Part shown: positions 10,257 to 56,316 of the stretch, one piece after another
How the letters are laid out: every line of letters starts with the position of its first letter
Numbering within the stretch: position 1 is the first letter of the stretch
Assembly: GCA_030625885.1 (NCBI GenBank)
Contig: DAOUPZ010000009.1
Coordinates: forward strand, 1-64,000
Origin: Clostridia bacterium
GTDB taxonomy: Bacteria > Bacillota > DAOUPZ01
Length of the DNA stretch: 64,000 nt
Reading direction: 5' to 3'
The notes under the pieces: generated by a model
What the model was told of the DNA's origin: nothing
The model's database searches: none
Seen by the model: only the letters and a program-made list of their open reading frames with translations
Program-made: the position numbers and the translations under genes

Positions 10257-10790
10257 ATGGCTCAAGAAATTATCTTAGCTGGTTTTGGAGGCCAGGGAAT
10301 TATGCTGGCTGGTAAATTATTAACTTATACAGGGATGCTCGAAGGTAAAAATGTAACTTGGCTGCCTTCCTATGGGCCTGAAATGCGGGGAGGAACAGCA
10401 AACTGTACGGTTATTATTTCGGACGAAGAAATTGGTTCCCCCATTGTTACGAATCCTTCAGTTGCTTTAGTATTTAATAATCCGTCTTTGGAAAAGTTCG
10501 AGCCATTAGTAAAAACAGGTGGAACGCTGATTGTGAATACTTCCTTAGTTACAATAAAATCTAAGCGAACTGATATCAATATTATTAATATTCCTGCTAA
10601 TGATATTGCAATTGAACTTGGAGAAGTGAAAATTACCAATATGGTCATGATGGGTGCTTTTGTGGCAGCAACAAAAGCTGTATCATTTGAAGGGGTTATG
10701 GATGCTTTAAAGAAAACGTTACCGGCTCATCGACAAAATTTATTGCCACTAAATGAAAAAGCCTTAAAGAAAGGTTCTGAATTAGTATAA
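10257..10790 (+). CDS. vorC: 2-oxoacid:ferredoxin oxidoreductase, gamma subunit
   Basis: 177 residues starting with EIILAGFGGQGIMLAGKLL, the conserved GFGGQG motif of gamma subunits, then WLPSYGPEMRGGTANC. It completes the VorDBAC complex. It begins directly at the end of vorA, and a terminator follows, marking the operon's end. Confidence 0.88.
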   Translation: MAQEIILAGFGGQGIMLAGKLLTYTGMLEGKNVTWLPSYGPEMRGGTANCTVIISDEEIGSPIVTNPSVALVFNNPSLEKFEPLVKTGGTLIVNTSLVTIKSKRTDINIINIPANDIAIELGEVKITNMVMMGAFVAATKAVSFEGVMDALKKTLPAHRQNLLPLNEKALKKGSELV

Positions 10791-10813
10791 GAGGATGAAT
10801 AATGTTGATTTTA

Positions 10814-10840
10814 AGCCGGGGAAGGTATCCCCGGCTTTTT
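10814..10840 (+). terminator. Terminator of the buk-ptb-vor operon
   Basis: AGCCGGGGA / TCCCCGGCT stem (9 bp) with a 5-nt loop and TTTTT, 23 bases after the vorC stop. Confidence 0.9.
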
Positions 10841-10856
10841 GGCAACATGAGTCGAT

Positions 10857-11098
10857 AGGAGTTAGTAGTTAGCAGTTAGTAGTTAGGACTATAAAGGGCA
10901 GAAAGTTAAAGGCTTAAGGCTAAAAATTAAATAATAACTAATGTTCTCAGTTCCCGGCTCTCAGTTCTCAGCACTAAGTGAGAAAATTAATACTTTGCTC
11001 TTGGGTCTGAGAACTGAGAACCGAGAACGTTTTTAAATCTTTCAGCCTTCAGCTAGTATTTTTTTCCCAACTGCTAACTGCTGTTCTCTAACTGTTAT
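10857..11098 (+). repeat. Nested inverted heptamer arrays, order H1-H2-H3 ... H3'-H2'-H1'
   Basis: H1 (GTTAGTA/GTTAGCA units) is at 10859-10887, H2 (AAGGCTTAAGGCTAA) at 10905-10925, H3 (TTCTCAG units) at 10943-10972. The complements follow in mirror order: H3' (CTGAGAACTGAGAACCGAG) at 11006-11029, H2' (TTTCAGCCTTCAGCT) at 11038-11054, H1' (AACTGCTAACTGCTG) at 11068-11095. The whole 240-bp spacer can fold into three concentric stems. No coding capacity is seen. Confidence 0.85.
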
Positions 11099-11138
11099 CT
11101 AATAAATACTTTAGAGGTTTGTAAGAGGAGGTGTAGGG

Positions 11139-12248
11139 GTGATTAATCGACAACGCTTAATAAAGGAATTTTTGCACTTAGTAGAAATAGATAGTCCATC
11201 CAAGTGCGAAACTGCCATTGCAAAGTATTTAAAAGAAAAATTACGTTCATTGGGGTGTGACGTATTTGAAGATGATTGCGGTTCGAAAATGGGTGGCAGT
11301 GCTGGCAATATTATTGGCAGAAAAATAGGGAAAAGTGAACAGAAAAACACCATTTTTTTTAGTGCCCATATGGATACCATTGAATCTAATTTTGGTATGA
11401 AGCCTTGTATTAAAGAGGACATTATTTATAGTGATGGTACGCATATTTTAGGTGGGGATGATAAAGGTGGAATTGCAGCGATATTGGAAATGTTGCAAGT
11501 TCTTCAGGAAAATAATATAAACCATCGACCATTGGAAATCGTGTTTACAATTAGTGAAGAAACTGGGTTGGATGGGGCAAAAAACCTTGACATGGGTTTG
11601 ATTACATCAGAGTATGGTTATGTTTTGGACGTCGGAGGGGATATTGGAACCATTGTCAATAAAGCAGCAGGACGGAACCGAATTGAAGCCGTTATTTGTG
11701 GGCAGGCAGCTCATGCGGGATTTGAACCTGAAAAAGGAATTAACGCGATTCAGATCGCAGGTAAGGCCTTGGCCCAGATGGAACTGGGAAGGATTGATGA
11801 TGAGACAACGGCCAATATTGGTCGTATAGAAGGTGGGAAAGTAACCAATATTATTCCCGATATGGTTCACCTCATTGGTGAAGCACGGAGTTGCGATAAG
11901 GAAAAATTGTGTGCTCAAACCAATCATATGACTCATATCATAGAGAAAACATCACAAGAAAATGGAGCCTGGTGTAAAGTTAATATTAAAAATTTATATT
12001 TACCTTTTGCCATTGAACCACATGAAGCGGTGATTTTAGATGCGGTAGAAAGTGCACATTCAATCCATATTAATCCAATATTAGCGACAAGTGGTGGAGG
12101 GAGTGATGCCAATATATTCAATCAATACAATATCCCTACAGCTAATCTTTCAATGGGGATGGAAAAAGCGCATACAAATGAAGAATATATTAAAATTGGT
12201 GATCTGGTAAAGATTACGCAATTACTAGTTGCAATTGCTCAGGGATAA
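11139..12248 (+). CDS. M20-family metallopeptidase, PepT-like
   Basis: 369 residues; GTG start with AGAGGAGGTG upstream. Zinc-binding pattern of M20 exopeptidases: SAHMDTIE (about 75-82), GGDDKGGIAAILEM (about 105-118), the catalytic ISEETGLDGAKN and later VLDVGGDIG; HAGFEPEKGINAI is the dimerisation-domain insertion and AHTNEEY the last ligand. It should cleave di- or tripeptides, or a related amide, in the cytoplasm with two metal ions. The start ERLI...VEIDSPS is like the PepT-like subgroup (YqjE type) and less like true PepT. It is transcribed alone. Confidence 0.85.
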   Translation: MINRQRLIKEFLHLVEIDSPSKCETAIAKYLKEKLRSLGCDVFEDDCGSKMGGSAGNIIGRKIGKSEQKNTIFFSAHMDTIESNFGMKPCIKEDIIYSDGTHILGGDDKGGIAAILEMLQVLQENNINHRPLEIVFTISEETGLDGAKNLDMGLITSEYGYVLDVGGDIGTIVNKAAGRNRIEAVICGQAAHAGFEPEKGINAIQIAGKALAQMELGRIDDETTANIGRIEGGKVTNIIPDMVHLIGEARSCDKEKLCAQTNHMTHIIEKTSQENGAWCKVNIKNLYLPFAIEPHEAVILDAVESAHSIHINPILATSGGGSDANIFNQYNIPTANLSMGMEKAHTNEEYIKIGDLVKITQLLVAIAQG

Positions 12249-13589: not shown

Positions 13590-13767
13590 AAAGATAGCAG
13601 TTAGGAGCTAGCAGTTAGAAAAAGATACTGGCTGAAGGCTGAAAGCTAAAGGCTAAAGGCTTAAGCAAATGACAAATATAAAAGGCTTTTTGATCTTTGG
13701 TTTTAATCCTTAGCCTTTAGTGTCTTCTAATCTTTTCCTACCTGCTAACTGCTGGTTGCTACCTGCC
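13590..13767 (+). repeat. Nested inverted heptamer arrays, order H1-H2 ... H2'-H1'
   Basis: H1 (AGCAGTTAGGAGCTAGCAG) at 13592-13618, H2 (GGCTGAAGGCTGAAAGC and following AGGCTAA units) at 13629-13664, then H2' (CCTTAGCCTTTAG) at 13706-13720 and H1' (CCTACCTGCTAACTGCTGG) at 13737-13767. The flank GAAAAAGAT beside H1 is mirrored by ATCTTTTCC beside H1'. Same layout as 10857-11098 but without the H3 core. Confidence 0.85.
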
Positions 13768-20313: not shown

Positions 20314-20640
20314 AAATGGTTAACCCCCTTTAGTATAGTCATATTTTATGTATTATCTTCCATAATATTCATGATTGAGGAAGATTAAAGGGGAAAGCAG
20401 GTGGCAGGTAGCAGGTAGGGAAAGATAAATAATTAAAAGATCGAGGAAAGATCGCTCCCTTCGTTCGCTGAAAGAGGAACGACCGCTTCATTTGGTCGCT
20501 GAACGAAAAAAATAAAGGGAAAAAGCTAACAGCTAATTATTTAATTTGTATGTTATGCAATAAAGAACTTACATTGCAGGTTTGCAGGAAAAGCGAAGGA
20601 AGGATGGGGCAATTCTAAATGTAAAAACTTTAATGCAACT
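20314..20640 (+). repeat. Repeat-filled spacer: H1 array, GAAGGGA modules and dispersed repeat R
   Basis: 20396-20426 is an H1 array (GCAGGTGGCAGGTAGCAGG) with the usual GGGAAAGATA tail. 20449-20515 carries two copies of the AGCGA..GAAGGGAGCGATCT module in opposite orientations (GATCGCTCCCTTCGTTCGCT; GGTCGCTGAACGA). 20571-20640 is repeat R (GCAGGTTTGCAGGAAAAGCG then GGGGCAATTCTAAATG), also found at 62651. No gene is seen. Confidence 0.7.
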
Positions 20641-29442: not shown

Positions 29443-29519
<77 letters not shown>

Positions 29520-29533
29520 ACAGACATAAAGAT

Positions 29534-29610
29534 GCGGGAGTAGCTCAATTGGCTAGAGTACCAGCCTTCCAAGCTGGGTGTTGCGGGTTCGAGTCCCGTT
29601 TCCCGCTCCA
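29534..29610 (+). tRNA. tRNA-Gly (TCC)
   Basis: Acceptor GCGGGAG / TTCCCGC, anticodon loop CTTCCAA with TCC, TTCGAGT loop, encoded CCA. Confidence 0.97.
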
Positions 29611-29614
29611 ATAA

Positions 29615-29691
29615 GCGCCCGTAGCTCAGGTGGATAGAGCAACGGACTTCTAATCCGTGTGCCGGAGGTTCGAGTCCCCCCGGGCGCGCCA
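29615..29691 (+). tRNA. tRNA-Arg (TCT)
   Basis: Acceptor GCGCCCG / CGGGCGC, anticodon loop CTTCTAA with TCT, encoded CCA. Only four bases after the Gly gene. Confidence 0.97.
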
Positions 29692-29724
29692 TATTGTTTT
29701 AGTACCATAGGATGTATAAACTAT

Positions 29725-29801
29725 GGTGGGTGTAGCCAAACGGTTAAGGCGCTGGATTGTGGTTCCAGTATTCGTGGGTTCGATTCCCATCACTCACCCC
29801 A
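29725..29801 (+). tRNA. tRNA-His (GTG)
   Basis: Includes the encoded G(-1) pairing with C73; acceptor GTGGGTG / CACTCAC, anticodon loop TTGTGGT with GTG, CCA. Confidence 0.97.
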
Positions 29802-29813
29802 TTATAAATTTTT

Positions 29814-29890
29814 GCGCCTGGAGCTCAATTGGATAGAGTGCCGGACTTCGAATCCGTAGGTTGGAGGTTCAAGCCCTCTCAGGCGTACCA
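29814..29890 (+). tRNA. tRNA-Arg (TCG)
   Basis: Starts GCGCCTGGAGCTCAATTGG; anticodon loop CTTCGAA with TCG, TTCAAGC loop, encoded CCA. Position 8 is G in place of the usual T, which is atypical. Confidence 0.9.
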
Positions 29891-29925
29891 TTTATTGATA
29901 TTTATTGCGAGAGTTTCATATTTGT

Positions 29926-30001
29926 TGGGGCGTCGCCAAGTTGGTAAGGCACCAGATTTTGATTCTGGCATCCGTAGGTTCGAGTCCTGCCGCCCCAGCC
30001 A
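29926..30001 (+). tRNA. tRNA-Gln (TTG)
   Basis: Acceptor TGGGGCG / CGCCCCA, anticodon loop TTTTGAT with TTG, discriminator G, CCA. Confidence 0.97.
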
Positions 30002-30016
30002 AATTTTTTCATATAT

Positions 30017-30092
30017 GGGCCATTAGCTCAGTCGGCAGAGCACCTGACTTTTAATCAGGGTGTCCCGCGTTCGAGTCGCGGATGGCTCACCA
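30017..30092 (+). tRNA. tRNA-Lys (TTT)
   Basis: Acceptor GGGCCAT / ATGGCTC, anticodon loop CTTTTAA with TTT, CCA. Confidence 0.97.
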
Positions 30093-30098
30093 TCTTAT

Positions 30099-30183
30099 GC
30101 GAGGGTGGCGGAATTGGCAGACGCGCTAGACTTAGGATCTAGTGGGGTATCCTGTGCGGGTTCAAGTCCCGCCCTTCGCACCA
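30099..30183 (+). tRNA. tRNA-Leu (TAG)
   Basis: 85 nt with long variable arm; acceptor GCGAGGG / CCTTCGC with one wobble, anticodon loop CTTAGGA with TAG, CCA. Confidence 0.97.
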
Positions 30184-30207
30184 AGTGAAAAATATTTTAG
30201 CTAACAT

Positions 30208-30282
30208 GCGGAAGTGGCTCAGTGGTAGAGCATCGCCTTGCCAAGGCGAGGGTCGCGGGTTCAAATCCCGTCTTCCGCTCCA
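30208..30282 (+). tRNA. tRNA-Gly (GCC)
   Basis: Acceptor GCGGAAG / CTTCCGC, anticodon loop TTGCCAA with GCC, CCA. Last of the cluster. Confidence 0.97.
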
Positions 30283-47803: not shown

Positions 47804-47821
47804 AATTTATAGTAAAGTAAA

Positions 47822-47945
47822 GAGGCAGGTAGCAATCAGTAGGTAGGGAAAGATTTTTTAGTTGATAGTTGATAGTTGACAATTGACAGTTAAAGGATTA
47901 AAAGAAGCAGGTAGGAGTTAGCAGGTAGTAGGTAGGGGATGACTA
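47822..47945 (+). repeat. H1-H4-H1 heptamer array downstream of recA
   Basis: GGCAGGTAGCAATCAGTAGG with a GGGAAAGAT tail, then H4 units (TTGATAGTTGATAGTTGACA, ATTGACAGTT), then H1 again (GCAGGTAGGAGTTAGCAGG, TAGTAGGTAGG). The complementary H1' is at 48106-48185. The 424-bp recA-recX spacer holds no gene. Confidence 0.8.
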
Positions 47946-48105
47946 GATAGTTTGAGGATTTATGGTAAATGTTCGTAAAAGGTTGAAGGACAAGTGAATA
48001 GTGATTTTTTAATAATACGTGATAGGTATTAGAAATTTTCTAAAATCCATTAATGGTTAGAAGATAACTTTACTGAAAAAAGTACGGAATATCACAATAA
48101 GACAT

Positions 48106-48185
48106 ACCTCCTACCTGCTGTTTGCTACCTGCAACAACGAAGTTGTTCTTACCTACTAAAAGTGACCGAAGGGAACGAGCTACCT
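48106..48185 (-). repeat. H1' array with mini-hairpin and GAAGGGA module
   Basis: CCTCCTACCTGCTGTTTGCT+ACCTGC, then AACAAC-GAA-GTTGTT (48133-48147), TTACCTAC, AGTGACCGAAGGGAACGAGC (48160-48179) and TACCTGC. The modules sit exactly between heptamer units, as if inserted there. Confidence 0.8.
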
Positions 48186-56039: not shown

Positions 56040-56316
56040 AGATATATAGACTGTGAACAGGAATAGTAAAGTATGTACTTTTCTTTAGAGAGCCAATGGA
56101 AGGTGGAAATTGGTGGAAAGTCGTCTTGAATCCGCCTGGGAGTTTGATCAGTGAAACATGAATAGCTGATCACGGATGAATAGTCCGTTATGATATGATT
56201 AGACCTAAATGATGTATTAGGACTAAAGAGACTAAAACAATAATGTTTTAGTGAAACAAGGTGGCACCGCGTGAGATTATTCCCGCCCTTGAAAATTCAA
56301 GGGCGGGATATTTTTA
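56040..56316 (+). promoter_or_regulatory. Serine T-box riboswitch
   Basis: T-box AAGGTGGCACCGCG at 56258-56271 and terminator CCCGCCCTTGAA / TTCAAGGGCGGG with a T-rich end at 56282-56316. Stem I shows the AGTA turn, AGAGAG bulge and distal loop; the specifier loop reads GAA-TCC-G just above the CAGG/CCTG base stem, so the codon is TCC (Ser, 56131-56133). The UGGC bulge expects discriminator G73, as tRNA-Ser has. Both agree with the serine genes downstream. Confidence 0.92.

Follow-up and report, generated by a model that had tools for sequence, protein, structure and literature searches.

Nested inverted heptamer arrays in an intergenic spacer of a Clostridia bacterium: probable, mostly S23-less relatives of IVS-type mobile elements

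The window analysed here, a stretch of 64,000 nucleotides from the draft genome of a Clostridia bacterium, contains a spacer between a 2-oxoacid oxidoreductase gamma gene (10257-10790) and an M20 peptidase gene (11139-12248), names which we take from reading of the translations. In this spacer six heptamer arrays follow each other in the order H1-H2-H3-H3'-H2'-H1' (10854-11099). The arrays, their composite and two further spacers of the window are as follows:

10856..10888, + strand: H1, outer 5' arm, (AGTTAGN)4, family A
10909..10926 (about), + strand: H2, middle 5' arm, AAGGCTTAAGGCT, family I
10943..10971, + strand: H3, inner 5' arm, GTTCTCAGTTCCCGGCTCTCAGTTCTCAG, GTTCTCA units, family C
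10972..11006, strand not given: innermost core, 3' end TACTTTGCTCTTGGG
11007..11028, + strand: H3', inner 3' arm, CTGAGAACTGAGAACCGAGAAC, CTGAGAA units
11039..11054 (about), + strand: H2', middle 3' arm, CTTTCAGCCTTCAGC, weak
11069..11099, + strand: H1', outer 3' arm, AACTGCTAACTGC..TAACTGTTATC, also written AACTGCTAACTGC..CTAACTGTTATC
10925..11052, + strand: H2[H3] (I[C]) composite in the focal spacer
13591..13751, + strand: H1-family (A) arms around H2-family (I) arrays, without H3
47804..48161, + strand: dispersed element with AGCAGGT arms (family B), in a related spacer

A cluster of nine tRNA genes (29443-30279) and a T-box leader (56044-56293) also lie in the window.

The nested order, which the initial annotation had reported, is real. 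H1 and H1' are complementary at 74% over 35 nt and H3 and H3' at 83% over 29 nt; H2 and H2' match by eye at 12 of 15 positions and H2' was not picked up by the automatic family label at two mismatches, so that a middle layer exists but is weak. The strand folds into one long hairpin, both as RNA (-106.8 kcal/mol, z -5.6, none of 100 shuffles as good) and as DNA (z -5.7, none of 200 shuffles as good). The ends of the element are inverted, complementary and long-stem-forming, as in S23/IVS-type elements, and its body consists of intergenic tandem copies of degenerate 7-bp units, as in the short tandem repeats (STRRs) of cyanobacteria. Rfam returned no match to a known RNA family in the spacer. 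A promoter and terminator scan of the spacer found none, which is a weak test because it missed a GC-rich, terminator-like hairpin with a T run that is visible at 10812-10840. An origin of the pattern by chance, in the focal spacer or genome-wide, is excluded by the shuffles and by the genome-wide counts.

These counts come from 1.26 Mb (41%), surveyed in stretches, of a 3.1-Mb genome in 39 contigs. Counted with crude ORF calling and inflated by related copies, the period-7 arrays number 156 in intergenic and 17 in genic DNA; period 7 is an outlier, with 4-27 intergenic arrays at periods 5, 6 and 8-11 in the same 1.26 Mb. Period 8 shows a smaller intergenic excess as well (27 intergenic vs 7 genic). 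About 12 unit families, which grade into one another within arrays, can be told apart (units AGTTAGC, AGCAGGT, AGTTCTC, AGTTATC, AGTTGAC, AATTGAC, AAGTGGT, AAGGCTT, AGGTAGA, GAACGAG and AAAGATT). An inverted partner within 400 nt, matching at at least 14 of 16 positions, accompanies 57 of the 156 arrays; direct partners were found for 14 and partners in other-locus controls for 11. Density is uneven, with 89 heptamer labels per 100 kb on contig C38 and 10.8 on C12 (L031-L042), and most observed B copies are located on C38 (L043-L050, L087-L088).

The orientation of the arrays follows a strict rule. Within families the order is plus before minus in 82 spacers and the reverse in one, a ratio that measures consistency inside each family, the sign having been set from the same data. 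Between families, 72 unique architectures give plus before minus 115 times and minus before plus 9 times; permutation of signs within architectures gave a mean of 68 and a minimum of 36 for the latter. Where a spacer holds complete hairpins of two different families, a strict count found them nested in seven cases, crossing in one and side by side in none; four of the seven are B[F] and possibly of shared descent. Polarity, nesting and permutation counts together rule out a side-by-side or random-orientation arrangement, and the nesting thus withstood the genome-wide check of order and orientation that the initial annotation had proposed. The same polarity was seen by eye in three other genomes (G289, G161 and G018), where the AGT unit of the paired hairpins stays in the 5' arm in 11 of 11 cases, with units including AGTGCTC, AGTGCCC, AGTTGTC and AGTTCTC.

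Each layer of the focal element also occurs in other company. The A family is found with a short loop (C28b:168367), around L arrays only (C38:25463, C4:74960), around I arrays without H3 (at 13591..13751) and, in the focal spacer, around I[C]. A copy of I[C] without A lies at G000:C27:66351-66471, with 88% identity over 121 bp, and C has a short loop at C7:1680. In several C hairpins the 3' arm is bordered on its inner side by a common motif, TTTTGCYCTTAGG, and the TACTTTGCTCTTGGG motif of the focal core recurs at this border in other C hairpins. Copies of the B family are dispersed and have conserved arms; their cores are variable, 23 to about 250 nt long, and the guests in them include F and H hairpins, K arrays and REP hairpins of 35 nt (GGGGACA..TGTCCCC). 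A further type of guest is a GC-rich imperfect palindrome, GACCGCTCCATTCGGTCGCTG and variants, which interrupts arrays of several families (20443-20503 in the window, also B and K arrays elsewhere). Dispersed, gene-free copies with inverted ends, as in MITEs, are thus present. In UBA2595 and a Thermincola sp. the order korB-korC-M20 is conserved, with a heptamer-free spacer of about 100 nt, although an empty site at close range was not found for the focal spacer.

These data bear on the two explanations offered in the initial annotation, of which the first, insertion of hairpin cassettes into one another, has good support: the families behave as parentheses, host hairpins are empty or hold different guests, the relatives' spacers are short and lack the insert, and on a named Nostoc plasmid an S23 element with heptamer arms has a heptamer hairpin exactly inside it. 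The second, selection for a concentric structure, would make the spacer a functional RNA or DNA fold (a regulator, an mRNA stabiliser or a recombination site); it is backed by the strong folding, by the position between stop and start, and by the scarcity of paired hairpins in divergent spacers (4 of 67 vs 72 of 371, p=0.005). Against it, 28 of 31 changed positions in the arms of 26 B copies are changed on one side and three on both, and no compensatory covariation was found in these arms beyond one of the 31. Differing guests at one place in one host, and the absence of the structure from the orthologous spacers of relatives, likewise argue against a selected fold, which we regard as very improbable. 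The one-sided arm changes and the avoidance of divergent spacers agree better with insertions that are tolerated than with a regulatory fold that is conserved.

A candidate for the agent of such insertions is encoded in the genome itself, a RAYT-like Y1 transposase gene (G000 C10:17541-17879, L157), and some of the heptamer hairpins contain REP hairpins, about 29 of which were seen in the sample as conserved 35-nt GGGGACATTCC..GGTGTGTCCCC structures. If the RAYT moved the heptamer hairpins, its own gene might be expected to carry them; its flanks are formed instead by GGGACAGTCCC-type hairpins, which do not fit and led us to reject it as the mover. The REPs, moreover, lie mostly outside heptamer hairpins, and the arms hold S23 genes rather than RAYTs. 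We therefore consider mobilisation by the RAYT extremely unlikely.

The association with S23 genes was opened by one locus in which a gene between inverted J/L arrays encodes an S23/IVS four-helix-bundle protein (PF05635, TIGR02436; weak match to Avd). Of the genes between unpaired arrays (12 in the order plus-gene-minus, 5 in the reverse) most belong to ordinary operons and one is this S23 gene, and S23 is the sole gene found repeatedly inside arms. The S23 protein is kin of Avd, a protein of diversity-generating retroelements (DGRs), and of the 23S rRNA intervening-sequence protein; structures of relatives have been solved (2GSC, Xanthomonas XCC0516; 2RLD), and we know of no catalytic activity. 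In this genome each of the four S23 genes is enclosed by inverted arrays, with arms of B (17/18), J/L (17/18), AATTCAT (17/18) and 11-mer (15/18) type. Across Bacillota S23 loci, flanking inverted arms match at at least 15 of 18 positions in 33 of 39 cases and at at least 16 of 18 in 24; for 149 other small genes, all taken from this heptamer-rich genome, the figures are 18 and 4 (Fisher 3e-16 for at least 16 of 18). Among 22 Bacillota S23 loci chosen regardless of heptamers, 18 reach the lower and 12 the higher threshold. Conversely, S23 is present in 8 of 10 heptamer-rich genomes vs 72 of 399 in the phylum sample (p=3e-5). Of 17 S23 genes on named plasmids, almost all of which are cyanobacterial, 16 have bracketing arms that match at at least 15 of 18 positions, for example AGGGAACAGGGAACAGGG/CCCTGTTCCCTGTTCCCT in Nostoc C052. 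Good arms were absent at 6 of the 39 loci, and a few S23 loci of Bacillota and plasmids have 8-, 10- or 11-mer arms in place of heptamers; the 11-mer arrays around S23 at L176 and L212 are of the AATGGTTAAAC type. On cyanobacterial plasmids some S23 elements lie amid CRISPR genes (L215, L219, L222), as cas10-S23-cmr3 in Picosynechococcus and as cas6-S23-cas4 in Pseudanabaena and Anabaena.

The focal arm families themselves touch S23 at one point. In G018 an S23 gene whose frame has one stop (L180) is flanked on both sides by H3-family arms; H1 and H2 were not seen around any S23 gene examined. No S23 ORF lies between the ends of the focal element, which is therefore filed as an S23-less relative and not as an S23 element, though the type of arm is shared. 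S23 remnants were found in none of the S23-less cores of this genome, so that descent from S23 elements by deletion is unsupported.

Insertion as such can be read on cyanobacterial plasmids. An S23 element of 428/414 bp is present in plasmid C of Trichormus variabilis and in Scytonema NIES-4073, and the corresponding empty site was found in Nostoc linckia NIES-25, with flanks identical at 148-150 of 150 positions on each side. GTAAT (5 bp) is duplicated at the insertion, and pC052_E of Nostoc C052 carries a shortened copy of the element at that site. In Nostoc 'Peltigera membranacea cyanobiont' N6 an S23 gene is interrupted by an S23-less heptamer hairpin, a 182-bp insert with arms AATTCAGAAGTCAG../..CTGACTCCTGAATTC, and the host S23 element is itself heptamer-armed; its uninterrupted form exists in Nostoc ATCC 53789 (flanks 149/150 and 148/150). 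This insertion, with a target duplication of at most 1 nt, shows the very step of nesting in a named organism. Further empty sites (Microchaete, Nostoc C057, ATCC 53789 pNsp_b) agree and are more diverged; none of them gave a readable target duplication, and a clean one was read at the Trichormus/Scytonema site alone.

The clean insertions of 414-428 bp and 182 bp with intact flanks also weigh against a local birth of the hairpins, in which slippage would make the arrays and template switching would copy them inverted, the hairpin itself being immobile and S23 genes and REPs landing later in ready-made hairpins. Several features are as such a process would leave them: the two arms differ in copy number and variants, unit families intergrade within arrays, and, as PMC4679880 relays from Mrazek 2007, heptamers are more frequent in many genomes than other long simple repeats. 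Dispersed copies that have asymmetric cores as well as arms in common, and the strict polarity, are harder to reconcile with it, and we consider local birth unlikely.

The focal spacer is thus probably a stack of relatives of IVS-type mobile elements, nested and mostly without S23. Each layer would be a pair of inverted heptamer arrays, the arms, around a core, with arms of the kind that brackets S23/IVS protein genes (PF05635, TIGR02436), and those at 10854-11099 most likely belong to this class as non-autonomous, MITE-like members that lack S23 and were inserted in each other's core. The outermost layer would have come first and later ones would have entered existing cores, after which slippage may have lengthened, shortened and drifted the arms. 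The layers of the window would have been moved by the same process as the plasmid S23 elements, possibly with the preference for hairpin loops that rRNA IVSs suggest by analogy, and trimming of the transcribed hairpin by RNase III may make insertions between co-oriented genes tolerable. The kinship with Avd hints at a reverse transcriptase as partner; the reverse transcriptase gene at G000 C23:745-1365 (L241), whose matched stretch contains one in-frame TGA, proves nothing in this respect.

A wider reading, which we put forward tentatively and hold to be somewhat doubtful, is that tandem heptamers across bacteria (cyanobacterial STRRs, Xanthomonas GGGAATC, Beggiatoaceae TAACTGA and the present Bacillota families) are arms, or remains of arms, of one S23-based mobile class, which may use a reverse transcriptase and prefers hairpin loops as targets and therefore stacks concentrically. 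Heptamer repeats and S23 proteins, the latter with solved structures and unexplained function, are both widespread in genomes; if heptamer arrays were the ends of S23-type elements, the two puzzles would become one testable system, rRNA intervening sequences would form one particular case within it, and spacers with nested heptamers would record successive insertions. In the literature searched, which covered few subscription journals, heptamer repeats of Bacillota are undescribed and a general link between heptamers and S23 is unreported. The repeats themselves are not confined to this genome: the initial annotation knew of no counterpart in spore-forming Bacillota, and arrays of the same kind are carried by G018, G161, G289 and others. 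The reversed control pattern AGTCAAGAGTCAAGAGTC has up to 45 matches in G279 (noted with G011 and G131), which indicates that G279 has a heptamer family of its own. The interpretation given in the initial annotation therefore holds for the insertion of cassettes inside each other, and neither for the selected fold nor for the lack of a Bacillota counterpart.

Several known systems share features with these elements. The P6b stem of the Nostoc trnL intron consists of heptamers of one or the other of two classes, and insertions have given it side hairpins at one position, but this is a single locus inside a group I intron (PMC4476775). Geobacter metallireducens has multicopy tandem-heptamer elements, some of them self-folding, which were interpreted as binding sites for regulators or as regulatory RNA elements and for which nesting is undescribed (PMC2700814). 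The 70-75 inverted array pairs of Xanthomonas GGGAATC are always convergent and thus resemble our arrays in their fixed polarity, but they belong to a single G-rich family, were given a G-quadruplex reading, and nesting or an S23 link is unstated (PMC4692102). The comparison with cyanobacterial STRRs made in the initial annotation is apt, since both STRRs and the focal arrays are tied to the S23 gene. STRRs and the TAACTGA repeats of Beggiatoaceae, which also occur in cyanobacteria and Bacteroidetes, are likewise intergenic tandem heptamers, and AGTTATC of the present genome is the reverse complement of the Beggiatoaceae TAACTGA; they differ in being described as direct repeats, with no nested inverted order and no S23 link (PMC4679880). 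With MITEs and REP/REPIN sequences our elements have in common that they are small, dispersed intergenic hairpins and that S23-less copies outnumber S23-bearing ones, but no transposase or IS ends could be tied to the heptamer arms, and the hairpins around the RAYT gene of this genome are of another kind. The IVSs of 16S and 23S rRNA in Coxiella and Leptospira are hairpins that take the place of tetraloops, may encode S23p and are cut out by RNase III (PMC4990558). The present elements lie between protein genes, are mostly S23-less, have longer heptamer arms and are nested, and the focal one, being intergenic and outside rRNA genes, is not a classical rRNA IVS. Like the S23 elements, however, rRNA IVSs have an S23 four-helix-bundle ORF and complementary, long-stem ends, and the likeness extends to their size of about 430 bp, their seats in hairpin loops, their patchy distribution and, in the 23S IVS of Coxiella, GACAGAT heptamers ahead of the S23p ORF (PMC4990558).
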